Virus record (IMG/VR): IMGVR_UViG_3300037242_000119
Span: 1 to 23,248 of that record
Strand: one strand, 5' to 3'
DNA from: a virus
DNA length: 23,248 bases
Below are positions 17-23,244 of this stretch, piece after piece; positions within the stretch are counted from its first letter, which is position 1, and each line of letters begins with the position of its first letter. The translations under genes were made by a program, and so were the position numbers. The notes under the pieces are model-generated. The model made no database searches, was not told where the DNA came from, and saw only the letters and a program-made list of their open reading frames with translations.

Positions 17-733
17 TTAGAACGGAGGTTTCGGAGTTTCCGCTGCCGTGACACTTGCGTCGACTGCCGTCGCTACAGCGACAGGCGGAACTGGAGGAAC
101 AGCATCAGGAGGAGCGACCTCAGCAACGCCAGGTGTCGTGACCACTGGCGCAGGAGCAACTGGAACTACTGGCGCCGTAACTGGCTCAGTTACAACTGGC
201 GGTCCAGCGACTGGTGGTGCAGGCGGAACAGTTGGTGCGGCGCCAGGAACAGGAACCGGTTGTCCTCCCGGAGCAACTCCAACTACAGGAGCATCGACGA
301 CTGGAACTGGCGGTGCTCCCGCCATTGCTCCAGCTAATGGAAGCAATTTACGAACTTCATTGCGAGTTGAGCCGTTGTATTCCGTTAGTCCGAGTTCGAC
401 TGTGCACATTGCATTGAGGAGTGCATTCGCAACTTGGTCATCACTCGGTTGCGCAGCAAAGAACTCCATGCCAAGTCCGAGGATCTTCATCTTTGAGAAG
501 AAGAATGCGAGCGCCTTCGCATTGTCTGGTGTGACAACGTAACGGTCCCACACTTTGCGATTTGCATGCGGACCGTTGATGACGGTCATCTCAACTTCAA
601 ACATTGACTTTCCGGTTTGCGAAATCTTGTGAGTCGATTTCCCAATCTTGATGTCGTATCGTCCTACTGGAAGCGGATCAAATCCGCCAGCCTCCTTGGC
701 TGATTCCAGCATCTCATTCCATGTCGGTGACAT
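17..733 (-). CDS. DUF669-like phage single-stranded DNA-binding protein
   Basis: This 238-residue protein is probably the phage ssDNA-binding protein. Residues 1 to about 130 fit the DUF669-type phage family: an N-terminal GRYDIKIGKS strand, then FEVEMTVINGPHANRKVWDRYVV and a helical segment with FFFSKMKILGL. Residues from about 135 are a Pro/Val/Ala-rich low-complexity tail with almost no charge. The tail ends PKPPF, which resembles the aromatic PF tip that bacterial SSB proteins use to recruit partners; that parallel is inference. The ATG follows a purine-rich AAGAGAGAAA ribosome-binding region. It lies just downstream of the Sak4-like ATPase gene, the usual pairing in phage recombination modules, where the binding protein coats ssDNA and the ATPase loads or anneals on it. 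Family assignment is by eye from a short conserved core, so it is good but not certain. Confidence 0.75.
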   Translation of the reverse strand: MSPTWNEMLESAKEAGGFDPLPVGRYDIKIGKSTHKISQTGKSMFEVEMTVINGPHANRKVWDRYVVTPDNAKALAFFFSKMKILGLGMEFFAAQPSDDQVANALLNAMCTVELGLTEYNGSTRNEVRKLLPLAGAMAGAPPVPVVDAPVVGVAPGGQPVPVPGAAPTVPPAPPVAGPPVVTEPVTAPVVPVAPAPVVTTPGVAEVAPPDAVPPVPPVAVATAVDASVTAAETPKPPF

Positions 734-748
734 TTTCTCTCTTTTCTT

Positions 749-1462
749 TTAGGCTTGGTCAGTGCTGTAGATTTTTGCGAGCATCTCTGTTATGTTCGGG
801 TTCTCTACCACTATTCCAAGTTTTCCAGTTCGGTCGCCGGCTTCAAATGCGCCTGCTTGACCGCACAATAGTCGATGCCGTATCTCACCTGTCGTCGCAT
901 CTGGTTCTGTCCACATGTAACCAACGACATCGACGTAGTACGGAAGAGTGTTCGCGAGCGCACCTTGAACGTACGGTCGCTTAATGCCGTCGTAGTCGCG
1001 AGTCATCGCGATGAAGGTGACGACTTGTAGAGGATTTGTCGGGTGGATGATCAAGTCACGATATGACCGCACGAGTGACGACATCTTACGGAGAAGTTCG
1101 CCCCAGTCCTGGATCTTCATCGCTTCTGTGCCAGCAAGAGCATCCACGCAGCGTTGCTGAGTTTCCGACAATGAATCAATTGCGGCAGACTTGAAGTGAT
1201 GTTGACCGCTATTCAACCAGTCGTATGTTCGTTGTACATCGGAGAACGTCCGTACATGGACCACAGCGGTATCCCACGTCCCATCTGGGACAGGAGGAGC
1301 CTCCATCATAGGATTCCATTGAATCTTCCTCGAATTGGTGAATCTGGTACTCGCGCCACCTTCTGCATCAAGGACAAGCCGTGGTGTCGGACTCGTGTCG
1401 GAGAGAAACGACTTACCGGTCTTGCTGTAGCCGTGGATGAGAAAACTTACGCCTTGCTGCAT
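749..1462 (-). CDS. Sak4-like RecA-fold ATPase (phage recombinase, AAA_24 type)
   Basis: This 237-residue P-loop ATPase resembles the phage AAA_24/Sak4 group of single-strand annealing or RecA-like recombinases. Walker A is GYSKTGKS at residues 11-18. A Walker B-like strand, SAAIDSLSE, has its acidic residue at about 96. LVLDAEGG near residue 30 matches the family's characteristic strand after the P-loop, and a later strand reads VVTFIAMTRDY. Length matches the family. It starts at an ATG sharing one base with the stop of the Cas4-like nuclease gene (TAATG), so the two are probably translationally coupled; a GAGG lies about ten bases upstream. The nuclease/Sak4/SSB order is a standard phage recombination module. 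The alternative, a generic phage nucleotide-binding protein, is the same superfamily. Confidence 0.8.
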   Translation of the reverse strand: MQQGVSFLIHGYSKTGKSFLSDTSPTPRLVLDAEGGASTRFTNSRKIQWNPMMEAPPVPDGTWDTAVVHVRTFSDVQRTYDWLNSGQHHFKSAAIDSLSETQQRCVDALAGTEAMKIQDWGELLRKMSSLVRSYRDLIIHPTNPLQVVTFIAMTRDYDGIKRPYVQGALANTLPYYVDVVGYMWTEPDATTGEIRHRLLCGQAGAFEAGDRTGKLGIVVENPNITEMLAKIYSTDQA

Positions 1463-2385
1463 TACAGATTGACCTCTGCTTCTGATGAGTACCGCTCTAA
1501 TGGATTATGGATCATGTACGATGATTCAATGACGCCTTCCGCATACGAGCCGTCATCGAACATCGGGCAGACTACTCGAAACTCGCAGTCCCAAGCGCAG
1601 TCTTTCGTCGGATTTGGATATGCAGCAATACGAGGATCTACACCGTTGTCAAGTGCGTCAACGACATCGATCATATCGGAGAGAACACCGAGGATTCGAT
1701 ACCAGTAACTGCGAAGACCAACGTCTGTGTGGTGGATCGGCTCTCTCAAGTAGAACGGAGGTTTCGCCGCCGCTGTACGCTTAACTTTACGAAGCATATT
1801 GAGCATTCCACCAGTGACGTGTTGGTCGACTGGAAGTGTCAATCGTTCAAGCAACTGGTACATGAGTGGTTGCTCGTTGATCTCGAGCGTTTTTGTCAAG
1901 CCATCGAATGATGCGCATGTCTTATGGTCCATCGAGAACAGACGATCATCAGTGATACGACGGACCCGAGTATCAAGTTTACCGATAATCTGTACTGGCA
2001 CTCGAAGACCTTCGAAGTCGGCGATGAGTTCTTTCTCCACCGCAAGCACTTCAATGTCGTCGTCAACACCAGTGTCTTCGACCCATTGGACGTAGCCTTC
2101 GATCATGATGAGTGCTAAATCAGCTTCTTTGTTGAGTTCATCTCGCGCCGTCGCATCTTCTGGGTCGAGTTGGTTTCGAGCTGTTTCGTACTGTTCTCGA
2201 ATCTTTGCGATCGGATCGCCAGGAACAGGAGCATATTTCACAGCGAGCGCTTCGTGAATTCTTGAGCCTAAAGGAAGCGGGCCAGTAACTCGTTGGTCGA
2301 TCTTGCGAAGCTTACGATAGTTACCCAGCCACCAACGCCTCCGACAACGTCTGAATGATGAGATTTCAGAGTTGCTGACGTGCAT
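1462..2385 (-). CDS. Cas4/RecB-like PD-(D/E)XK nuclease with Fe-S cysteines
   Basis: This 307-residue protein is a PD-(D/E)XK exonuclease of the Cas4/AddB/RecB type. It opens with SNSEISSFRRCRRRWWL, the classic N-terminal segment with the first cluster cysteine at C14. A His follows in SRIHEAL (H44). The catalytic core has D138 in GKLDTR and D153-H-K155 in SMDHKT. Three further cysteines sit near the C terminus as C-x3-C-x5-C (C263, C267, C273), so the four-cysteine iron-sulfur set is complete. Such phage enzymes resect DNA ends for recombination. No cas1 or cas2 and no repeat array is nearby, so a CRISPR role is unlikely. The ATG has an AGGGA ribosome-binding site and a promoter-like extended -10 element just upstream. 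Confidence 0.87.
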   Translation of the reverse strand: MHVSNSEISSFRRCRRRWWLGNYRKLRKIDQRVTGPLPLGSRIHEALAVKYAPVPGDPIAKIREQYETARNQLDPEDATARDELNKEADLALIMIEGYVQWVEDTGVDDDIEVLAVEKELIADFEGLRVPVQIIGKLDTRVRRITDDRLFSMDHKTCASFDGLTKTLEINEQPLMYQLLERLTLPVDQHVTGGMLNMLRKVKRTAAAKPPFYLREPIHHTDVGLRSYWYRILGVLSDMIDVVDALDNGVDPRIAAYPNPTKDCAWDCEFRVVCPMFDDGSYAEGVIESSYMIHNPLERYSSEAEVNL

Positions 2386-10182: not shown

Positions 10183-13100
10183 TCACGTTCTTACATTCGC
10201 AGAAGTGATGTTTTCTTCTGAAATTTCTTGCGCAAGTCCTGTCTCTACAGCAATTGATGTGTCAGATAATGTAGCGAGTGCAACGCCGCCGTCAGTTGTT
10301 GTGAAATCGACAATCGAAGCGCTAACTGGTGTGGCAACGGTAATTGAATTATCAAGCATTGTTTCAACAGAAGTTACGACGTTGTCAATTGAAGTAGCAA
10401 TTGTGATCTCGCCGCCTATCACCGTCGAGTTTCCAGTTGAGACATTTATGCAAGTAGCGATCGCTGTCAAATTGCTTATTTCTGTGCCGATTCCGATAAG
10501 GTTCGTTATACCGGTCACGACGCCGACAGAAGTGGAAGTGATAACGACATTGCGCTGCGTGTACACGACACCGATTGCAATGTCAGTGTTGACAGAAACG
10601 TCAACGGCATCTCTTATGATACTCGTATAGCGAGTTACGAAGTCGGTGTTAGACGATTGGTCTGTTGCGCCAGAGTAGAAACTGACTCTGCGAGTAGCAA
10701 CGTCAACGTTAATTGAAAGATCAGTAACATTTCTAGTGAATACAATGCGTTGAGTCGCCGTATCATTATTGAAGCTCGAGTCTGTCGCAGTTCTCGTTGT
10801 ACTTGTCCACCGCGCAGCAGAATCGAAGTTCAGCGAAGAGTCTGTGCATGCTCTACTGGTTGATCGTGAACCAATTGCTGCATCGATACTCGTACTTGAG
10901 TCGGATGCCGACCGAATAGATGCTTGTGTTCTCGTCGTGCTGTCTGTATTCACTGAAGAGTCGCTCACTGCTCTCGTTGGCGAGCCAGTGGAGTTGATTG
11001 CTACATCTGTATTTATTGAGCTGTCGTTCGCCACCCGAATGAATATTTGAGCAAGACGTGTGATGACATCACTATTGAGCGAAGCATCAATCGCATTACG
11101 GCTCTTGAATGTAGCAGATCGTGATGCCGTATCCGTGTTTACACTTACATCCGTGCAAACTCGTATGAAGGCAGTTGACCTTGTCGCACTGTCGTTATTG
11201 ATTGATGAATCAGTTGCGGAACGTACTGCTGCCGTGAATCTTGTCACGGTATCTGCATTGAGTGAAGAGTCAGACACCGATCGAATGAATGCCGCTGAAC
11301 GATTGATCAAATCAGTATTGTCGCTACCGTCATTCACACTTCGGTTTGTGGATACGAATCTCGTCACTGAGTCAGAGTTTATAGAAGTATCAATTGCTGA
11401 ACGAATGAACGCTTGAGTTCTCACTGCTGCATCTGTATTAAGTGAACTATCGCTTGCTGTACGTACTTGAACATTCGACGGTGAGGCAGCATCAATGTTC
11501 GTGCTTGAATCCACGGCACTTCGAATGAACGACTGAATCGCTCTGACAACAGCATCAGTGTTGATAGACGAGTCAATTGCAGTACGAACTATGAGTTTAG
11601 TTCGTGCGACGACATCAGTATTCACTGAAGAATCAGCACAAGTTCTTACGAGAATGAAGTATCGTTGGACTGAATCGATGTTGAGACTCGAATCGGATGC
11701 GGATCGAACCACGACAAATGTTCTAACTGTGACGTCACTATTAAGAGAAGTATCGACGGCAGAACGAATAAATGTTTGCGTAGCGCGAGTAACTGCATCA
11801 GTATTTGCACTCGCGTCGGTTGCCGATCGAACTATCGTTTGCACCTTGATCACTGCATCAGTATTCAAGGAAGCGTCTGCTGCCGATCGAACGAAGATTT
11901 GAACACTTCTCATAACTAAATCGGTATTCACAGAAGCGTCTGCTGCTGTACGAACTACAAAATGCGACCTTGTAACGGTGTCGGTATTCACTGAAGAGTC
12001 AACGGTTGAACGAATGAAAATCTGCACTGTTCGCGACACCGAGTCAGTATTAAGTGATGCATCCGTTGAGGTCCGGTAAATTGCTTGAGTTCTGACGACT
12101 GAATCGATATTCGTTGATGCATCTGTGGCAGATCTGATGAATGCTTGAGCCGTTCGAACAATCGCATCCGTATTGAGACTCGTGTCTGTCACAACACGCA
12201 GCCAGGCGAGTACTCTGACAACAGCATCGGTATTCAAAGAAGTGTCCGTTGCGGTGCGAATCAGCGGAGGTATCGATACAATTGCGGAATCGGTATTGAC
12301 GCTGCTGTCAATCGCAGTACGAATAAAAAGTTGAGTGCTTCTTGTTACTGCATCCGTATTGATGCTCGTATCGGTTGCCAACCGGACTTGAGTGAACGTT
12401 CTCGTCACTGTATCCGTGTTGATTGAGGAATCCGTCACTGAACGAATGAACAACTGAGCACTTCGAATGACAACGTCTGTATTCACACTTGAATCGGTTG
12501 CTGCGCGAATTTTACTCTCAGCGCGAGTAGCACTATCAGTGTTGACTGATGAATCGACGGTCGTTCGGATGAAGATTTGAACTGATCGAATAACAGCATC
12601 TGTGTTGAGTGAAGAGTCAATTGCGGTTCGAATTATTGACTGAATGCGAGTTACGGCATCCGTATTGACAGATGAATCTGAGCAAGTTCTAACGGATACG
12701 AATTGCCGAGTCACACTGTCCGTATTAACTGAAGAGTCGGTTGCTGTCCTAACGAATGCTTGAATACGGACGACCACATCGGTATCGACTGAATTGTCTG
12801 TCGCTGTTCGAATCACAGTATGTGATCTGGTTACGGCATCAGTATTTACTGAGTTGTCAGTCGCGCTTCGAATGAAAACTTGAACTGTACGAGTTACAGC
12901 GTCGGTATTGAGACTCGAGTCTGTAGTCGTACGAACGATAGTTTGAGTCCTCGTCACAGAATCGGTGTTAATGCTAGAGTCTGCGGTCGTTCTAATGAAT
13001 ATTTGCACGCTTCTTGCGACGGTATCAATGTTCACCGAATTATCACTTGCGCTTCTGACACGAGTGAGCGACCGCGAAGTTACATCTGTATTGACAGAGT

Positions 13101-14304
13101 TATCAGTACAAGTTCGGAAGACGCCAAGGATTCGTATTGCTACATCTGTGTTCAAACTAGAGTCCGACACCGTCCTAATAAACAGTTGCGTTACTCTAGT
13201 TGCTGCGTCTGTATCCAATGAAGCATCAGCGGCTGAACGAATGAATACGATTGTTCTCGCTACACTGTCGGTATTCACACTCGAATCTGTCGCCGTTCGA
13301 ATAAAAATTTGAACTGCACGAATTACTGCATCTGTGTTGACTGAGGAATCTACGGCCGTTCGAATTTCAATGATGAATCGGGTCACAACATCCGTATTCG
13401 CACTCGTATCAGAAACTGAGCGAATAAATGTTTGCGTTTGAGCGACAGCGTCAGTGTTTGTTGAAGAGTCAGTCGCTGAACGGATGAACAGTAAAGCAGA
13501 TCTATTTACGGTATCCGTGTTGATACTCGAATCAGTCACTGTACGGTTGAAGAGTTTTGTGGTGATAGCCACGTCTGTGTTAAGCGAAGAATCAGTTGCT
13601 GAACGAATGAAAATCTGAACCGTTCGAATGACCGCATCAATATTGACACTAGAATCGGTCGCTGTCCTGATCTCAATCAGACTACGAGCAACAGTATCTG
13701 TATTCGCACTAGAATCGGCAGCGCTACGAATGAAGGTTTGAACTAATCTACTTGTCAAATCGGTATTGATAGACGAATCAATAGCGGTTCTTATTGTCAC
13801 AAGTGAACGCGTGATGTTGTCTGCGTTTATTGATGAATCTGTTGCTGTTCGAATAAATATTTGAGTTGCACGCGTAACTGAATCAGTGTTAACTGAGGAA
13901 TCGGCTGTTGTACGTATTCGAACAAACGAACGAGTGACACTATCAGTGTTGACTGATGAATCAGTGACAGTTCTGACAAATGTTTGAGCACCTTTCGTTG
14001 CACTATCCGTATTTACACTGGAATCGACAGCAAATCTTGTTGCCATGAATGCCATTCGAGTGACGACATCAGTGTTGACTGAAGAGTCGGTGGCTAAGCG
14101 AACCTTGTCGCTAGTAGTCCTGGTCGCAGTGTCTGTATTGACTGAACTGTCAGTTGCTGAGCGTATGAAGACCTGAGCGCTTCTTGTGGCTACGTCTGTG
14201 TTGACACTGGAGTCTGTCGCGGTGCGCGTGAGCGAGACGTTCGACGCAAGACGTACAGGTCGCGGCCTGCGCGGAACTGGGAATGAACGTCCAAACCGAG
14301 CCAT
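10183..14304 (-). CDS. Giant tandem-repeat protein, likely solenoid tail fibre or adhesin
   Basis: This 1373-residue protein begins with a short basic, Pro/Arg-rich segment (residues 1-27). About 60 tandem units of 20 or 21 residues follow (28 to about 1252), then a 121-residue Ile/Thr/Val/Gly-rich tail with looser periodicity. The unit core is ATDSSVNTDAVTR followed by a variable segment ending in IR or FIR. The Asp-x-Ser-x-Asn-x-Asp core and the closing Arg are nearly invariant. The first position is nearly always Ala, Val, Thr, Ser or Cys, suggesting a buried small residue. The spacing and alternating beta pattern suggest a beta-solenoid rod with Asp/Asn and Arg ladders, perhaps metal-bound. 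No enzyme motif is seen. The ATG overlaps the upstream stop (TAATG). A host-binding fibre is likeliest; the fold is inferred. Confidence 0.8.
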   Translation of the reverse strand: MARFGRSFPVPRRPRPVRLASNVSLTRTATDSSVNTDVATRSAQVFIRSATDSSVNTDTATRTTSDKVRLATDSSVNTDVVTRMAFMATRFAVDSSVNTDSATKGAQTFVRTVTDSSVNTDSVTRSFVRIRTTADSSVNTDSVTRATQIFIRTATDSSINADNITRSLVTIRTAIDSSINTDLTSRLVQTFIRSAADSSANTDTVARSLIEIRTATDSSVNIDAVIRTVQIFIRSATDSSLNTDVAITTKLFNRTVTDSSINTDTVNRSALLFIRSATDSSTNTDAVAQTQTFIRSVSDTSANTDVVTRFIIEIRTAVDSSVNTDAVIRAVQIFIRTATDSSVNTDSVARTIVFIRSAADASLDTDAATRVTQLFIRTVSDSSLNTDVAIRILGVFRTCTDNSVNTDVTSRSLTRVRSASDNSVNIDTVARSVQIFIRTTADSSINTDSVTRTQTIVRTTTDSSLNTDAVTRTVQVFIRSATDNSVNTDAVTRSHTVIRTATDNSVDTDVVVRIQAFVRTATDSSVNTDSVTRQFVSVRTCSDSSVNTDAVTRIQSIIRTAIDSSLNTDAVIRSVQIFIRTTVDSSVNTDSATRAESKIRAATDSSVNTDVVIRSAQLFIRSVTDSSINTDTVTRTFTQVRLATDTSINTDAVTRSTQLFIRTAIDSSVNTDSAIVSIPPLIRTATDTSLNTDAVVRVLAWLRVVTDTSLNTDAIVRTAQAFIRSATDASTNIDSVVRTQAIYRTSTDASLNTDSVSRTVQIFIRSTVDSSVNTDTVTRSHFVVRTAADASVNTDLVMRSVQIFVRSAADASLNTDAVIKVQTIVRSATDASANTDAVTRATQTFIRSAVDTSLNSDVTVRTFVVVRSASDSSLNIDSVQRYFILVRTCADSSVNTDVVARTKLIVRTAIDSSINTDAVVRAIQSFIRSAVDSSTNIDAASPSNVQVRTASDSSLNTDAAVRTQAFIRSAIDTSINSDSVTRFVSTNRSVNDGSDNTDLINRSAAFIRSVSDSSLNADTVTRFTAAVRSATDSSINNDSATRSTAFIRVCTDVSVNTDTASRSATFKSRNAIDASLNSDVITRLAQIFIRVANDSSINTDVAINSTGSPTRAVSDSSVNTDSTTRTQASIRSASDSSTSIDAAIGSRSTSRACTDSSLNFDSAARWTSTTRTATDSSFNNDTATQRIVFTRNVTDLSINVDVATRRVSFYSGATDQSSNTDFVTRYTSIIRDAVDVSVNTDIAIGVVYTQRNVVITSTSVGVVTGITNLIGIGTEISNLTAIATCINVSTGNSTVIGGEITIATSIDNVVTSVETMLDNSITVATPVSASIVDFTTTDGGVALATLSDTSIAVETGLAQEISEENITSANVRT
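10549..14223 (-). repeat. About 60 tandem 60/63-bp coding repeats
   Basis: The repeat array inside the 1373-residue protein gene alternates 20- and 21-codon units. The 21-codon units carry a Q-x-F-I-R signature and occur about every second unit, making a roughly 123-bp higher-order repeat. Nucleotide copies are strongly diverged at synonymous positions: the same SSVNTD core uses many codon combinations. There is no near-identical pair of neighbours, unlike recent tandem duplications. Confidence 0.85.
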
Positions 14305-14996
14305 TACCTAAAACTCGCTCGCTTAATGGCTTGACGAGTCACGAGCACCTTCGCCTGCGACGCCAATCCCGCACATACCGTGAACCCATTCGCCGCGTTC
14401 GTTGATGCCGGTGACATCGACGCCGTTGGCTGGTATGCAGTTGACGCTGCAACGGCAGCCGAGAACGCTACGGCATCAGGAGTACTAATCGTGTAGGTGA
14501 AGGCCGCGCCATTAATTGGCGTGACACCGCCAGTTGGCCCATTGCCGCACCAGATAGAACCCCAGTACGCGAGCAACGTACCTGAAGGCGTCGTGATGTC
14601 TGGAAAGAACGCGGTCGTTGACGACGCGGGGTTCGTCGCTATCGCACCTGAGATATACCATTGCGTGTTCACACCGACGCCAGAAACGAGTGAATCAATA
14701 ATTATGTTGCTCAGACTGGTCGAGGCAGGAGTGACGGTGACAGTTGTAGCAGCCGCCGCAGCCGTTATGACAGCCACCCATGTTGTCGAAAAGTAAGAAC
14801 TCCACGAGCCAACGGCAATCTCTATCCACGTAAGGTATCCACCGCTGTCGCTGATGCCAGTGAGAGCCGCGAACGCATTAGCGGTGACGATGATGAGGTC
14901 ACCTTGCGCGCCGAGTTTTACGCTGGGGGCACCGCCAGAAAAGTACGGATACGACGCCGCGACCGAACGGGTGATAGCCACATCAGTCGCCGCCAA
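14304..14996 (-). CDS. Beta-rich virion protein, Ala/Thr/Ser-rich
   Basis: I do not recognise this protein of about 230 residues. It is rich in Ala, Thr, Ser, Val and Gly, with strands such as LGAQGDLIIVTANAF, TWIEIAVGSWSSYF and TTVTVTPAS, as in phage tail or decoration proteins. SPYFSGGAP-type turns and a lone WCGNGPTGG loop are present. The C terminus is basic (RQAIKRASFR). No enzyme motif, signal peptide or membrane helix is evident. The start is uncertain: a TTG at 14994-14996 overlaps the upstream gene by 14 bases, and a GTG at 14979-14981 lies just after its stop; neither has a strong ribosome-binding site. The stop overlaps the ATG of the giant repeat protein (TAATG), so the two are probably made together and may assemble together. 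Confidence 0.65.
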   Translation of the reverse strand: MAATDVAITRSVAASYPYFSGGAPSVKLGAQGDLIIVTANAFAALTGISDSGGYLTWIEIAVGSWSSYFSTTWVAVITAAAAATTVTVTPASTSLSNIIIDSLVSGVGVNTQWYISGAIATNPASSTTAFFPDITTPSGTLLAYWGSIWCGNGPTGGVTPINGAAFTYTISTPDAVAFSAAVAASTAYQPTASMSPASTNAANGFTVCAGLASQAKVLVTRQAIKRASFR

Positions 14997-15504
14997 TCTT
15001 GAACTTGAGGTAGCAGTAGCAGTTCGCCGCTGATGCCGCCGTCACGCGAATACGGCAGACGTGCGTGGCTGGAATGTAGAACTCCTGACCGAGTGGGAAC
15101 TGCAAGATGTTCTGATTCGTCGGTGAGATGAGTTGCAGGTCGCCACTCCGCACTGGTGCGGCCACGGTGCCTTCACTCGACGCGCTGTATCCAGAACCTG
15201 TTGTCGAGAGCGTGATGCCACCCGCTGAGGCCACGTTCGAGTCAACGGGGCCGTCATAGGTCGTGACGTCATTCGCTGCGAACGCGGTGACGGTAGCGGC
15301 AACTGCGACCGTCTCACAGAGTTCTACTTCAAATGGTGTAGCGGCAGCCGTCGCGTCGAATGAGATTCCCCACTCAACGATGTACATACCCTGAGTGGCG
15401 TGAAGGAGTTGGAGCATTGTTTTGATTCCTGATGCGTTGACCGCCACCTTCACTGGTGCCGCTGCTGCCGCACTCGCGCCGTTGTTGACTCTATAGAGGG
15501 CCAT
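14983..15504 (-). CDS. Beta-rich phage structural protein
   Basis: This 173-residue protein is probably a virion component. It begins MALYRVNNGASAAAAAP and has strands TMLQLLHATQGMYIVEWGISFDA and PFEVELCETV. It ends with CRIRVTAASAANCYCYLKFKIGGD, a pattern that fits a small jelly-roll or Ig-like fold. YIVEWGISFD followed by TPFEVELCE recurs in hypothetical proteins of phage tail regions, but I cannot name the family securely. It has no catalytic motif. The ATG directly follows the stop of the 23-codon mini-gene (TAA then ATG), and no strong ribosome-binding site is present, so translation probably depends on coupling. It overlaps the next gene by up to 14 bases. Confidence 0.68.
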   Translation of the reverse strand: MALYRVNNGASAAAAAPVKVAVNASGIKTMLQLLHATQGMYIVEWGISFDATAAATPFEVELCETVAVAATVTAFAANDVTTYDGPVDSNVASAGGITLSTTGSGYSASSEGTVAAPVRSGDLQLISPTNQNILQFPLGQEFYIPATHVCRIRVTAASAANCYCYLKFKIGGD

Positions 15505-15533
15505 TTATGACCCAGTAACAGTGTCCGTAATGG
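15505..15533. repeat. 29-bp direct repeat, copy A
   Basis: This matches 16757-16785 at 27 of 29 positions, beginning at the stop codon and covering the last nine codons (eight residues plus stop, and part of the codon before). Homology ends abruptly beyond it. The two copies flank the GH16 gene. Confidence 0.8.
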
Positions 15534-15576
15534 CGTTTGCGACTGAAGCCGCAGCGTCAATCGTATCGCGTTGCAT
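15505..15576 (-). CDS. 23-residue mini-gene sharing the 385-residue protein's C terminus
   Basis: This very short reading frame starts at an ATG sharing one base with the stop of the GH16 gene (TAATG) and ends immediately before the ATG of the 173-residue gene. It is thus linked to both neighbours. It reads MQRDTIDAAASVANA and then ITDTVTGS. Those last eight residues are identical to the C terminus of the 385-residue protein encoded upstream. The last 29 bases match that gene's end with two differences. It may be a remnant of a duplicated gene end, or a coupling peptide that keeps ribosomes moving through the junction. Independent function is uncertain. Confidence 0.5.
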   Translation of the reverse strand: MQRDTIDAAASVANAITDTVTGS

Positions 15577-16754
15577 TACGAACCAACAGGTATGTCGATT
15601 ATTACCCAGTCAACATCTAGTTCAATAGGCGTGGTAGCCGTCACACTCGCGTCAGGACCAGGATTCGGCATGACGTCACCTGTTTGAATTTGCAAGCACA
15701 GATTTTGACTGTCCAAGATACCCCCAGCAAGTTGCGCTGCTGAGAATACGAATGAACCAACTTGAGCACCGTCGCAACTGATGATGAGACCAGTTGACAA
15801 GAATTGAACTTGCCATACATGCCACTGAGAAAAGTCAACGCCAGTCGGAGCGGTCATTTCGATACCAAATTGCGGTCCGTGATCCGACCAGTGGATGGTT
15901 GCGGACATCTTCGTGATCGCTTGGTTCTTTGTCGTGATCTGGTTAATCTCAGCGAAGTCAAACTCCGTATCAGTGCCGTAGTTAATCGCCATCGGAGCGA
16001 TACCGGGATACGTATTGAACTTCATGCAGACGCTCTGAATGCTACCAGGTCCGACTAGTATCTTGCTATGAGTACCAGCACCACCCCAGTATGCAAGCGA
16101 TGCTCCGAGAGTCGGATTGTACTGGTAACAATCGACGATGTTTGTCGGGTCCGGGTACGCCTGGAAACGTGCGATCGAGTCACCCTTTAAGATAACGTGC
16201 TGCGAGATGAAGTAGCCAGTAGCAGTACCGCCACTTTCACCGTCGTACGCTGTGCCGCTTCCGCCGTCAGTCCAGTTCGCAGAGTTGAGCGACGTACCAG
16301 GAAAGTCGTCGCTGAGCACTCGTGTATAACCAGCTGCTACTGCTGGAATGCCGAAACCGCTAGGATTCGTCGATGAAGGCGGCGGAGTAGGTGGAGGTGT
16401 CGGCGGAGGAGTAGGAGGCGGCGTCGGCGGAGGTGTCGGCGGCGGAGGTGTCGGCGGAGGTGGAGTCGGCGTCGGAGGTGGAGTCGGCGGAGGCGTCGGA
16501 GTGGGCGGCGGCGGCTTCGGTGGAGTTGGTATCGGCGGAGGTGGCGCAGGCGGCGTAGGAGTGATCGGCGTCTCCCAGAACTTTGAAACGTATGCTTGCG
16601 CGATCGGCGGAAAGTCTTCGTTGATCGGATCGTACGTTCGTCCAGGGTAGCCATTTGACTCAGCCGTCATAAGATCCTCTCGTGTGAAGATCTTGACAAG
16701 ACCGGCCTCTTCAAGTTGCTCTGGAGTCGGCCCATAGTTGACTTTATCTGTCAT
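15576..16754 (-). CDS. GH16-type glucanase-fold virion protein with Pro/Thr linker
   Basis: This 392-residue protein has three parts. Residues 1-62 form a small charged N-terminal region (PTPEQLEEAGLVKIFTREDL). Residues 63-127 are an almost pure Pro/Thr linker. Residues 130-392 form a concanavalin-like glucanase domain. That domain opens with TRVLSDDFPGTSLNSANW, typical of GH16 enzymes, and contains EFDFAE at 264-269, matching the E-x-D-x-x-E catalytic signature (nucleophile Glu264, Asp266, acid/base Glu269). HVWQVQFLSTGLIISCDGAQVG matches the family's late strands. GH16 enzymes cut beta-1,3 or beta-1,4 glucans and galactans, so this is a plausible depolymerase for a host capsule or exopolysaccharide. 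There is no signal peptide, consistent with incorporation in the virion. It is flanked by a 29-bp direct repeat. Confidence 0.85.
   Translation of the reverse strand: MTDKVNYGPTPEQLEEAGLVKIFTREDLMTAESNGYPGRTYDPINEDFPPIAQAYVSKFWETPITPTPPAPPPPIPTPPKPPPPTPTPPPTPPPTPTPPPPTPPPPTPPPTPPPTPPPTPPPTPPPSSTNPSGFGIPAVAAGYTRVLSDDFPGTSLNSANWTDGGSGTAYDGESGGTATGYFISQHVILKGDSIARFQAYPDPTNIVDCYQYNPTLGASLAYWGGAGTHSKILVGPGSIQSVCMKFNTYPGIAPMAINYGTDTEFDFAEINQITTKNQAITKMSATIHWSDHGPQFGIEMTAPTGVDFSQWHVWQVQFLSTGLIISCDGAQVGSFVFSAAQLAGGILDSQNLCLQIQTGDVMPNPGPDASVTATTPIELDVDWVIIDIPVGS
16374..16568 (-). repeat. Low-complexity Pro/Thr linker-coding repeat
   Basis: On the plus strand this is a GGCGGAGGTGTC-type imperfect repeat. 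On the minus strand it encodes about 65 residues of PPTPPPTP. It separates the N-terminal anchor-like region from the GH16 domain and is likely prone to length change by slippage or recombination. Confidence 0.85.
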
Positions 16755-16756
16755 GG

Positions 16757-16785
16757 TTATGAACCAGTGACAGTGTCCGTAATGG
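16757..16785. repeat. 29-bp direct repeat, copy B
   Basis: This encodes the C-terminal ITDTVTGS and stop of the 385-residue protein and matches 15505-15533 at 27 of 29 bases. The pair brackets the GH16 gene. Confidence 0.8.
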
Positions 16786-17887
16786 TAACCGCGTCACCTG
16801 AAATCGTCAATGTCGCTGTGGCGTTCAGAAGAGTCTCAAACCACATGTTGATGGTTGAAGCGACCACTATCGAGTTGAAGAGTGCCATCTTCGCGATGGT
16901 AACTGGCACTGTGTCAGTACCGTTTGCAGTGAATGTATTCGCCGATGTGTATGTGTTCGTGCCGGCCGAGTGAGCGTAGGTTGTAACGGCTCGAACGAGA
17001 GCACCGCCACTGGTAACGATCTCGCCGGTCAACTGAGTATCGGTTGCAGAAGCAGCCGACGAGTTCGCGGTAATACCCATGAACTGCGCCGGCGAGACTC
17101 CCTGCACGATTGTGAACTTGTCGGTTGTGCCAGGAGTGGAACCAGCAGTAGAACCCGGTGTGGCCGGGTTGTACCAACGGTCGACAGTGAGCTGGGACGT
17201 TGTGTTCGACTGAATGTTACCCCAGACTCCAGTCGTGTTGTCCACGACGATCATGCCAATGTAGGCAGACGCGGTGAACGGTGTACCAGTTCCAGTGATC
17301 GTGGTCGTGGACGAAGCAGTGGCTGTCTGTTGCGCGAGAACCACCTGCGAACGACCTTGACCTTGCGCCCACATGTCTCGACCGGTGTTGACGAGAAGAT
17401 TCACGATGTCTTTGACATTGGCAACGAGCGGCGAGATCACTGGAGGAGTTGATCCGGGAGGACCGAACTGCGTGTAGTGAGTCAAGAACAGATCGTTTGG
17501 ACGACCGTAAGGAATCTCGTAGAAGTCGGAGAGCATCTTGCCGAATTCCGGTTCGTCACTCCAGACCCAAGTCGGTCGAGCATCGAGGGAGTTCGCCATC
17601 CATGAGCCTTCAGGGTGAACAAGGTCGCAGAGTGCGGCGGCGCCTGCGCCGTCTGTGACGCCAGCTCGTTCGAAGTTCGTGATGCCCTTGTTCATGATGA
17701 CGGATTCGTACAAATGCGCCTTGAACTTTGGAATCTCAATGCCAGAGTCATGAAGACCAGCATTCGTGTGACCAACGGTCGCATATGTAACGGTAGGAGC
17801 ACCTTCTAGACGATCCAGGTGCGAGACCATTTCTCCAGTCTCAGTGTTTCGGAAAGCCGCTGCCTTATTACCGAGTTCTACAAGTAT
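16757..17887 (-). CDS. Phage structural protein, tail or adhesin type (probable ATA start)
   Basis: This protein has 376 residues from ATA, or 385 from an upstream GTG. The first 170 residues are mixed alpha/beta with a conserved-looking core (HLYESVIMNKGITNFERAGV, DARPTWVWSDEPEFGKMLSDFYEIPYGRPND). After VLAQQTATASSTTTITGTG it is beta-rich, Thr/Ser/Gly-rich and ends ITDTVTGS, as in tail or baseplate-associated proteins. I cannot name the family. The GTG at 17912-17914 immediately follows an in-frame TAG and has no ribosome-binding site, while AGGAGATTTATA lies inside the frame. The ATA at 17885-17887 therefore fits the pattern seen in two other genes here. The stop is two bases before the GH16 ATG, implying coupling. 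Confidence 0.7.
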   Translation of the reverse strand: MLVELGNKAAAFRNTETGEMVSHLDRLEGAPTVTYATVGHTNAGLHDSGIEIPKFKAHLYESVIMNKGITNFERAGVTDGAGAAALCDLVHPEGSWMANSLDARPTWVWSDEPEFGKMLSDFYEIPYGRPNDLFLTHYTQFGPPGSTPPVISPLVANVKDIVNLLVNTGRDMWAQGQGRSQVVLAQQTATASSTTTITGTGTPFTASAYIGMIVVDNTTGVWGNIQSNTTSQLTVDRWYNPATPGSTAGSTPGTTDKFTIVQGVSPAQFMGITANSSAASATDTQLTGEIVTSGGALVRAVTTYAHSAGTNTYTSANTFTANGTDTVPVTIAKMALFNSIVVASTINMWFETLLNATATLTISGDAVTITDTVTGS

Positions 17888-17895
17888 AAATCTCC
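17885..17895 (-). promoter_or_regulatory. GGAGATTTATA ribosome-binding/ATA-start motif (copy 2)
   Basis: The minus strand reads AGGAGATTTATA with the ATA in frame with the downstream structural gene. It is identical to the copies at 4683 and 21417 except A for G at one position. It follows a short AT-rich intergenic stretch of about 60 bases with no convincing promoter or terminator; only a four-base GCAT/ATGC stem around a T-run is present. Confidence 0.55.
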
Positions 17896-17948
17896 TATGT
17901 GGATGTGATTGCACCTACATTTGAATATTACCATCTCAAGCATTCTTT

Positions 17949-19757: not shown

Positions 19758-20013
19758 GAGCCTCCGCTTTTTCGTGCACAGCAATCCACCATTGAATGAG
19801 TCCAACTTCTCCAGGAAGGCATCGTAGACGATCTTCGTAAATTGCGTTCTCATGACGAAGTGCTGCTCGTTCTGCCTCGTGCTTTTTATGATCTTGATTA
19901 CGCGGATAAACGACTCGAATGTAGATGCCTCCGATGCCGGCAAGGATTCCGACAGCGACAGAAACATATGTTAGCCAATCACGAAGAATGTTATGAGCAG
20001 CTGCCGCCAGCAC
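19738..20013 (-). CDS. Holin-like small membrane protein
   Basis: This 91-residue protein has one strong transmembrane segment at about residues 14-37 (LTYVSVAVGILAGIGGIYIR). A charged helix with an EAERAALRHENAIYEDR stretch follows, and the tail is Lys-rich, ending in KKKK. Small size, an early membrane helix, a basic tail and position right after the peptidase gene are typical of phage holins, which release or activate the endolysin. The start is a GTG sharing bases with the peptidase stop (TAGTG). It has one helix rather than two or three, so a class III-type holin or an accessory membrane protein are both possible. Confidence 0.68.
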   Translation of the reverse strand: MLAAAAHNILRDWLTYVSVAVGILAGIGGIYIRVVYPRNQDHKKHEAERAALRHENAIYEDRLRCLPGEVGLIQWWIAVHEKAEAHGKKKK

Positions 20014-21419
20014 TAAGCCGCCGTGGGCAAGTGAATGTCCGTAAGCGTATCGAGAACAGCGGTAACAGCCGCGACGTCGTAACCGGCTTCACTCGCAAGC
20101 GCCTTTGTACCAACAACCCAGCATTCACCGATGCACTCATTGTCCCAGTCGATAGTCGCATCTTGCCAGGCTCCCCATGTTGCGAACGTGTCACCTGCGG
20201 CACTGTATGCAGCAAGCGCAATGTCATGACCCTCATTCGGATCTGGAGTTTCACCATTTGCCGTCGTCCAAGGAAGACCTTCTTGAAACAATTGTTCAGC
20301 ATCATCTGTGAGACTTACTGCAACGAGGCAACCGTGAAATTCGAGCATCGCGCGGTGAGCTCGAGCAGCGGCATTGTCACCATTTATGACTCCAGCCACG
20401 ACATTGACTTCAGCAAAGAACTCAATGATCTTCTGTTGATAGAGCCAGAGCAACCATGTTGCGTTTGAAACTCCCTGATCAGGATGCAGACCCTGCTCTC
20501 CCATCGCACGACCGTATGCAAAATAGAGACCTTCCGTGTACGCCGTGTGCGGAACTCGGAATCCCTCTTCGTAGAGAGTTTTACCGTCAGTCGTCGAGAT
20601 CGCCGCTTGGATCATTCGAATGTGCTCTGTGGCAGCGGGTCCGCAGTCACCGTACTCATCGTTGCCAAGCATGCCAAGGTTTTGACCTAGCAGACCGTGA
20701 CGAACATCTCCTGTTGGTGCCAACGGCGGAAGTGCAGTTGTCTTAAACTTGTGAAGTTCGAGTTCAGGAAAGTGCAATTCACCGATTCGTGATCCGCGCT
20801 TGCCGGCCAGACGAGGACGTGGTTTGTCGTAACCGACATGCGCGTACTGAGGAAGACCAGCAGTCGGGTACCCTGGAGGAGCTGTGAGGAATCGTTCATG
20901 TATCCAGTACCGAATAGCCCATCCGTTTTTTCGAGCAAGATCTGCAGCAGCAGCATCAGGAAGATGCACCATATGGTGAGCGTCCAACTCTGCTTGAGTC
21001 GGAGGAGGACTGACAACTGGTGCCGGTACAAGAGCGAGAGCTGGTCGAGTTGCAACAATATATTGAGTCGTGTCGTAGGCGTATCTACCGACCGGTTCTC
21101 CAGTGAACGGCGCTTGGAAGACCCAACCGTCTTCCATGAAGATCATCACGTGTCCTGGCTCAGCAGCAGTACCGTCAGAGCCAGCGATGAAGAGAAGATC
21201 TCCCGCTTCGAGTTTTGCGCCCTTTGCAAGGATGTAGACCTTGCATTGTTCATACGTCGTTCGAGGAATAGTAATGCCAACATGAGCATATGCTTCCATC
21301 GTGAGACCAGAACAGTCATATCCCTCTGGTCCGATGCCACCCCAGATATACGGTTTACCGTTCTGGAGTTTCGCCCAATCTAATGCGCCAATACCTGCCG
21401 TCTCTCTGTCAAATGTTAT
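20013..21419 (-). CDS. Two-domain cysteine peptidase endolysin-like protein (NlpC/P60 plus C39/papain-like), probable ATA start
   Basis: This protein is about 468 residues long. The N-terminal domain is NlpC/P60: KPYIWGGIGPEGYDCSGLT with nucleophile Cys36, and PGHVMIFM with His90. A Pro-rich hinge (about 130-140) leads to a middle region. The second domain has GNDEYGDCGPAATEH (Cys259), EGHDIALAAYS (His398) and FATWGAWQD (about 412-420), the Cys/His order of C39 or papain-like peptidases. Together they suggest a cell-wall hydrolase or virion-associated lysin; the natural second substrate is unknown. The first ATG (21297-21299) lies after Cys36. No ATG, GTG or TTG exists between the in-frame TAA and that point, so the ATA at 21417-21419, after AGGAGGTTT, is the likely start. 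The stop is coupled to the holin-like gene. Confidence 0.85.
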   Translation of the reverse strand: MTFDRETAGIGALDWAKLQNGKPYIWGGIGPEGYDCSGLTMEAYAHVGITIPRTTYEQCKVYILAKGAKLEAGDLLFIAGSDGTAAEPGHVMIFMEDGWVFQAPFTGEPVGRYAYDTTQYIVATRPALALVPAPVVSPPPTQAELDAHHMVHLPDAAAADLARKNGWAIRYWIHERFLTAPPGYPTAGLPQYAHVGYDKPRPRLAGKRGSRIGELHFPELELHKFKTTALPPLAPTGDVRHGLLGQNLGMLGNDEYGDCGPAATEHIRMIQAAISTTDGKTLYEEGFRVPHTAYTEGLYFAYGRAMGEQGLHPDQGVSNATWLLWLYQQKIIEFFAEVNVVAGVINGDNAAARAHRAMLEFHGCLVAVSLTDDAEQLFQEGLPWTTANGETPDPNEGHDIALAAYSAAGDTFATWGAWQDATIDWDNECIGECWVVGTKALASEAGYDVAAVTAVLDTLTDIHLPTAA

Positions 21420-22480: not shown

Positions 22481-22927
22481 TTAGCCGAATGAAACTTGTA
22501 CGACGATTGTGAATGAGAGATCACCGATACCGCTAAGACTACTCGTTGTGATTGAGAGTTTGTGATTATTCGCTATCGTGTACGGAACTGAAAGCGGAAA
22601 TGTCGTTTGAGTACTCGTGACGGCGCATCCTGTCAGTCCAGCGATTCCAGAACCATTGTCTTTTAGGTCTATTGTCACCGAACCGGTGCTTATATCGGCG
22701 ATAGCATAGAGAATCTTCATGTTTTGCGTCAGTATGGAAGGGATGTATGGACCTGGATACGTCTTCGCGTTAATGAGCGGCCCGATGATCGCATACGGAA
22801 ATGGAATTGCAAAGACGACTGCGCCAGCCGTTCCTGGCACCCACGCAACTTCATCACCGTTTCCTGTGGACATCGCAAACAAACCTCTTTGAAGTGTCTT
22901 TGGAATCTTGCTTAGATTGAGTCCCAT
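22481..22927 (-). CDS. Small beta-rich structural protein
   Basis: I do not recognise this 148-residue protein. It has an N-terminal MGLNLSKIPKTLQRGLFAM, then strands VAWVPGTAGAVVFAIPFPY, MKILYAIADIS, GSVTIDLKDNGSG and a final LSFTIVVQVSFG. The composition, with no catalytic motif, fits a phage fibre, head-decoration or capsid-associated beta-sandwich. The start is the ATG at 22925-22927, chosen because GTAGGAGAAAAT gives a well-spaced ribosome-binding site that also contains the previous gene's stop. An upstream in-frame extension of 28 codons lies inside that previous gene. It is immediately followed by the YVTN propeller gene. Confidence 0.72.
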   Translation of the reverse strand: MGLNLSKIPKTLQRGLFAMSTGNGDEVAWVPGTAGAVVFAIPFPYAIIGPLINAKTYPGPYIPSILTQNMKILYAIADISTGSVTIDLKDNGSGIAGLTGCAVTSTQTTFPLSVPYTIANNHKLSITTSSLSGIGDLSFTIVVQVSFG

Positions 22928-22935
22928 ATTTTCTC

Positions 22936-23244
22936 CTACGATCCCAAGTAAAAAGCCGACATGTACGTCAAGAACGTACCAGTTACTCCAAGTGGGTCTT
23001 GGTAGCCCCATGCGTATGCGGCGTTCGATCCACTGTTGTTGACGTAAAGTGAAACAGTGTCTGCGCTAGCGTTCAAAAAAACGATATCCGATACGATGAA
23101 TGCCATGTCATATGAAGTCTCTGTTCCAGAAACCGTGCTGCCAAGTGTCGGAGTCGCTGTATCATTCACAATAATTTGCACGTTTGCGCTCACTAGCGGT
23201 ACTGGTGGAACATACGGAGGAGATGCAGACCCACTAAAAGTCAC
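22936..23244 (-). CDS. Small beta-rich structural protein, start uncertain at window edge
   Basis: About 102 residues are visible: a Pro-rich N-terminal region (GSASPPYVPPVPLVSANVQI) and strands ending YAWGYQDPLG and LTYMSAFYLGS. I do not recognise a family; composition fits a virion or fibre protein. A GTG at 23242-23244 is preceded by TA, making TAGTG like the junction at 20013, so this may be a true coupled start. The frame is still open to the window edge (23248), so a longer 5' part cannot be excluded. The stop codon is part of the next gene's ribosome-binding site. Confidence 0.58.
   Translation of the reverse strand: MTFSGSASPPYVPPVPLVSANVQIIVNDTATPTLGSTVSGTETSYDMAFIVSDIVFLNASADTVSLYVNNSGSNAAYAWGYQDPLGVTGTFLTYMSAFYLGS

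Follow-up and report, generated by a model that had tools for sequence, protein, structure and literature searches.

A direct repeat of 29 bp flanks a GH16-like tail gene in the genome of an uncultured virus, and the repeat together with this gene is probably a scar left by recombination in an exchange slot for tail-fibre genes. Scars of this kind have been reported from other phages, and the locus provides a good example rather than a new mechanism. The whole stretch of DNA that was analysed, called the window below, comprises 23,248 nt (positions 1 to 23,248 of IMG/VR record IMGVR_UViG_3300037242_000119). The closest match of its DNA polymerase was found in Actinomycetia phage DSL-LC01, with 42% identity; an actinophage-like genome, and with it the host lineage, is only hinted at by this match.

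A duplicated gene end beside the tail gene

According to the list of open reading frames, all genes at this locus are encoded on the minus strand. The upstream structural gene (16757..17914) encodes a protein of 385 amino acids, which belongs to no Pfam or PHROG family and ends with ITDTVTGS before the stop codon. It is followed by the GH16-like tail gene (15576..16754, 392 aa) and by a mini-ORF of 23 codons (15505..15576), which reads MQRDTIDAAASVANAITDTVTGS and a stop. Two further genes come after it, one directly 3′ of the mini-ORF (14983..15504, 173 aa, beginning with MALYRV) and a second one in the same variable block (14304..14996, 230 aa). Next in order is the gene of a 1373-aa repeat protein (10183..14304, phrog_23524).

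The two copies of the direct repeat lie at 15505-15533 and 16757-16785 and are identical at 27 of the 29 positions. Copy 1 (16757..16785, minus strand, CCATTACGGACACTGTCACTGGTTCATAA) consists of the last eight codons and the stop of the upstream structural gene, and this stop lies 2 nt ahead of the ATG of the GH16-like gene (16754). Copy 2 (15505..15533, minus strand, CCATTACGGACACTGTTACTGGGTCATAA) forms the end of the mini-ORF. The segment flanked by them is about 1.25 kb long. Both mismatches, GTC/GTT and GGT/GGG, are synonymous, and the longest exact run common to the copies is 16 bp. An all-against-all scan of 29-mers, which covered the window minus the repeat gene and low-complexity parts, ranked this pair first; the next pair had 23/29 identities and shuffled sequence at most 22. 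The 29-bp match recurred in none of 100 dinucleotide shuffles. The repeat is real and beyond chance, which confirms what an earlier note on this DNA had claimed, that the ITDTVTGS end and its stop are repeated at 27/29 beyond the GH16-like gene, where they end a 23-codon frame. Extension of the repeat into its flanks was weak (mononucleotide shuffle, P = 0.03 on the 5′ side and P = 0.006 on the 3′ side) and was not used.

As the window comes from the record of an uncultured virus, an artefact of metagenome assembly was considered. It is extremely improbable: the 16-bp exact run is shorter than the usual assembly word sizes, the copies differ at two sites and the reading frames are coherent at both junctions. 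A direct repeat around about 1.25 kb might also point to a mobile element or a site-specific cassette, the repeat being a transposon target duplication or part of an integron-like cassette. However, those window proteins that were scanned included no transposase or integrase. The copies are also imperfect and, with 29 bp, long for a target duplication. Furthermore, a palindrome at the site did not go beyond chance, and the attC core was unmatched by inspection. We regard a mobile origin as very improbable.

The GH16-like gene

The 392-aa protein is composed of a short N-terminal part, a Pro-rich linker and a C-terminal domain of ~260 aa. The linker is rich in both Pro and Thr, comprises about 75 residues (16365-16590, minus strand) and joins the N-terminal part to the GH16-like domain. 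This domain contains the motif EFDFAE, which fits the ExDxxE pattern, and then a DFSQWHVWQV...DG stretch. The protein had no match in Pfam even at E 5, none to the GH16 profile PF00722 searched directly at E 10, and none among PDB sequences; the PF00722 model did give matches in 6 of 14 control genomes. Fold prediction of the domain without relatives reached a mean pLDDT of 33. The label GH16 used in the earlier note is thus read from the two motifs only, and the profile does not confirm it.

The GC content of the domain (0.51) is ordinary for the window, and therefore there is no compositional sign of foreign origin. The searches revealed no donor from which the GH16-like gene or the start of the mini-ORF could derive. 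The gene had also been compared to a moron-like cassette. Like a moron, it is an extra gene at a junction of structural genes; unlike one, it stands in a tightly packed row, and a consensus scan detected neither a promoter nor a terminator of its own. No minus-strand terminator-like site was found near the end of the gene, and the single promoter-like site ahead of it is at chance level. The label moron in its strict sense, which implies an own promoter and terminator, was not upheld.

The same locus in a relative

The relative is one IMG/VR contig, IMGVR_UViG_3300038465_000158 (96,685 bp; L003-L006). No others were found among the viral contigs (IMG/VR) or genome contigs searched, and the slot genes of the window and their neighbours had no relatives among the phages or plasmids searched. 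DNA homology between the window and this contig is collinear over about 2.4 kb, with 74.6% identity, and it breaks off precisely at the stop codon of the upstream gene, whose protein is 86% identical in the relative. The gene end is present there in one copy, CGATCACGGACACCGTCACAGGGTCTTAG, which differs from either window copy at 7 of 29 positions. On its 3′ side lie a 438-aa tail-fibre gene and then the repeat protein. The 438-aa gene belongs to phrog_4492 (E = 3e-39) and has matches in 34 phage records, many of them annotated as tail fibre. A homologue of the GH16-like gene was found nowhere in the 96.7 kb of the relative, and its record also yielded no homologues of the next two genes (15504-14983 and 14996-14304) or of the mini-ORF DNA. 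One unrelated tail-fibre gene in the relative replaces these three genes of the window. The relative differs from the window across the whole 2.5-kb slot, and the left side is collinear up to the stop.

As judged from this gene content, the locus is a slot that is flanked by two conserved genes and occupied by different tail genes, a predicted tail-fibre exchange slot. Its left border is the upstream structural gene and its right border is the repeat protein gene, which is kept in the relative. Because the next two window genes are also missing from the relative, it is a multi-gene exchange slot without a clean empty site. The earlier note had interpreted the repeat as the footprint of insertion of a depolymerase gene and had proposed a search for relatives with a single copy and no GH16 gene. 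A relative without the gene and with one copy was indeed found, and a recombination scar remains the preferred interpretation. This relative is different throughout the slot, with another tail gene in place, and does not support an insertion confined to the GH16-like gene.

Two other proteins of the window were noted. The 1373-aa repeat protein consists of dozens of ~21-aa DSSVNTD..TR repeats and is 1328 aa long in the relative (L003 8470-12456); phrog_23524 has no assigned function, and the protein is perhaps a long fibrous virion protein. A 428-aa protein (20013-21299, minus strand) has an NlpC/P60 domain at its N-terminus; the long C-terminal part is conserved and weakly assigned to a family, and the true start of the protein may be further upstream than this frame.

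Age of the copies and the mini-ORF

The peptide ITDTVTGS is identical in the relative, with none of its eight amino acids changed despite the 7/29 nucleotide differences, and across the upstream gene the window and the relative differ at 56% of fourfold sites. Given these two levels of divergence, the difference of only 2/29 within the window makes a recent common origin of the two window copies most likely. When the relative serves as outgroup, each window copy carries one of the two silent changes. A conserved DNA signal was rejected as the meaning of the repeat, as the third codon positions of ITDTVTGS vary freely in the relative; such variation would not be expected of a conserved RNA element either.

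The mini-ORF comprises 15 leading codons, followed by eight codons and the stop of the upstream gene. Its ATG overlaps the stop of the GH16-like gene (TAATG), and its own stop abuts the next ATG at 15504 (TAA/ATG). Many minus-strand structural genes in the window start on the preceding stop or within a few bases of it, without a clear Shine-Dalgarno site, which suggests that translational coupling is widespread among them. A role of the mini-ORF as a coupling relay to the next gene is plausible, since it would fit both the overlapping stops and starts and the absence of clear ribosome sites.

The mini-ORF might even be functional in its own right, encoding a small peptide or serving as a selected relay through which the next gene regains stop/start contact with the GH16-like gene. 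The contacts at both of its ends, the neighboring starts on or beside stops without clear Shine-Dalgarno sites, and the two synonymous mismatches would agree with such a function. However, the peptide had no homologue in phages or in the relative; its conservation, which the earlier note had named as a finding that would speak against its own interpretation, was looked for in both and not found. Two synonymous differences out of two are expected without any constraint at P of about 0.08-0.11, and they may date from a time when both copies were gene ends. The silence of both differences is weak evidence, and it fits copies that diverged as functional gene ends before being joined. In addition, RNA hairpins like the one at this site are nothing unusual in this genome. 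A selected function of the mini-ORF therefore seems unlikely.

An RNA palindrome over the mini-ORF was one of the rejected candidates. It had a z-score of -3.2 relative to its own shuffles, yet 6.6% of segments of the same size fold equally well. It was also rejected on stem counts, which were close to those in shuffles (37 vs 30-34).

Origin of the second copy

The present arrangement would have been created by recombination, either between the genomes of related phages or within a single genome that had duplicated gene ends. The cassette would consist of the GH16-like gene plus the initial 15 codons of the frame that originally came after it, joined to a second 29-bp copy of the upstream gene end. 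Offset recombination appears to be the most economical account, and it would leave a hybrid 23-codon frame. Copy 2 may come from a sister copy or an allele of the upstream gene. The mini-ORF would be a hybrid of a foreign start and the end of the neighbor, tolerated because the stop/start contact with the next gene was kept. Three routes would fit: insertion with duplication, crossover between related phages at offset positions, and tandem duplication followed by deletion. The step that created copy 2 is not polarised, because the single relative differs from the window over the full slot; this relative is compatible with gain or loss, and with insertion or duplication plus deletion.

The last of these routes is a variant of the recombination scar and not an alternative to it. 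The upstream gene, or the gene plus the cassette, would have been duplicated in tandem, the second copy deleted to its last 29 bp, and the start of another gene fused to it. The end product would be the same, and tandem paralogues exist nearby in the relative, where three ~165-aa SKIPKT...QRG genes lie at L003 219-1719. The window has one such gene (22481-23011), and from these copies the number of SKIPKT...QRG genes in this tail region is seen to change via tandem duplication. However, the segment between the two copies of the repeat showed no other clear remnant of the upstream gene, and the similarity 5′ of the repeat is weak, with the shuffle P of 0.03 given above. We consider a duplication remnant possible but somewhat unlikely.

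A point against the recombination scar is the 16-bp longest exact run, which is short for RecA-type recombination. The window encodes, on the minus strand, a Sak4-like single-strand annealing recombinase (749..1462; phrog_124, E = 1.5e-28; 88% identical in the relative), a PD-(D/E)XK exonuclease (1462..2385; phrog_1218, PF12705) and a single-strand DNA binding protein-like gene (17..733; phrog_378, DUF669). Activity on short, diverged sequences has been reported for Rad52-like phage recombinases (PMC3945230) and for annealing proteins in general (PMC5499656). The Sak4-like protein is a candidate agent of the recombination, and the exonuclease may be part of the recombination module. Recombination between the copies, for example by the phage's own Sak4/SSB/exonuclease set, could also excise the cassette precisely. 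Such an excision would remove the GH16-like gene and the mini-ORF and leave both neighbors whole, with a predicted junction in which the next ATG touches the upstream stop.

Comparison with known gene junctions in phages

Two cases in mycobacteriophages have been published as recombination products (Pope et al. 2011, PMC3029335). Genes 67 and 68 of Island3 have a common 3′ end of about 60 bp, in frame, which is present in a single copy in Brujita. In LRRHood (genes 43-46), a 1.35-kb insert lies between 29-bp direct repeats, and the repeat sequence occurs once in Cali (Pope et al. 2011, PMC3029335). The 29-mer scan used for the window was run on both records and gave 28/29 for Island3 and 29/29, with a spacing of 1356 bp, for LRRHood. 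The window shares with these cases an extra gene between short direct repeats made of the 3′ end of the upstream gene, and a single copy in a relative without that gene, here the GH16-like one.

In Island3, too, the extra gene follows gene 67 and its 3′ end repeats the end of gene 67. However, the inserted gene there (85 aa) has the repeated end as its own C-terminus, whereas in the window this end belongs to a separate 23-codon frame after the 392-aa gene. Brujita is nearly identical to Island3 elsewhere; the relative of the window is diverged and carries another gene. The LRRHood cassette is of similar size, and its 29-bp repeats are placed in a similar way, one at the 3′ end of the preceding gene and the other ahead of the following gene. 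Its repeats are identical and its empty site is clean, in contrast to the 27/29 copies of the window and a relative with a different tail-fibre gene. The LRRHood cargo is a repressor segment and not a tail gene, and only in the window is the downstream copy in frame with a start. The boundary-sequence model of phage mosaicism likewise has a short common sequence at gene junctions as the exchange point. However, the boundary of the window is not kept as DNA in the relative, and given the 7/29 differences it is not a general signal.

It is improbable that the repeat is used repeatedly. In this scenario, the duplicated gene end would be the annealing site at which the phage's own Sak4/SSB/exonuclease system removes or acquires depolymerase cassettes, and the mini-ORF would be a translation relay, which in the presence of a cassette maintains expression of the genes behind it. 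If this were true, the population would be mixed for host-range genes. As a recombination scar, the locus adds a case from an uncultured phage lineage, and from a host-range slot, to the small number of documented repeats at gene junctions from which the formation of phage mosaics can be seen. A gene end that is duplicated in this way is a testable footprint, and systematic searches for it could reveal exchange slots.
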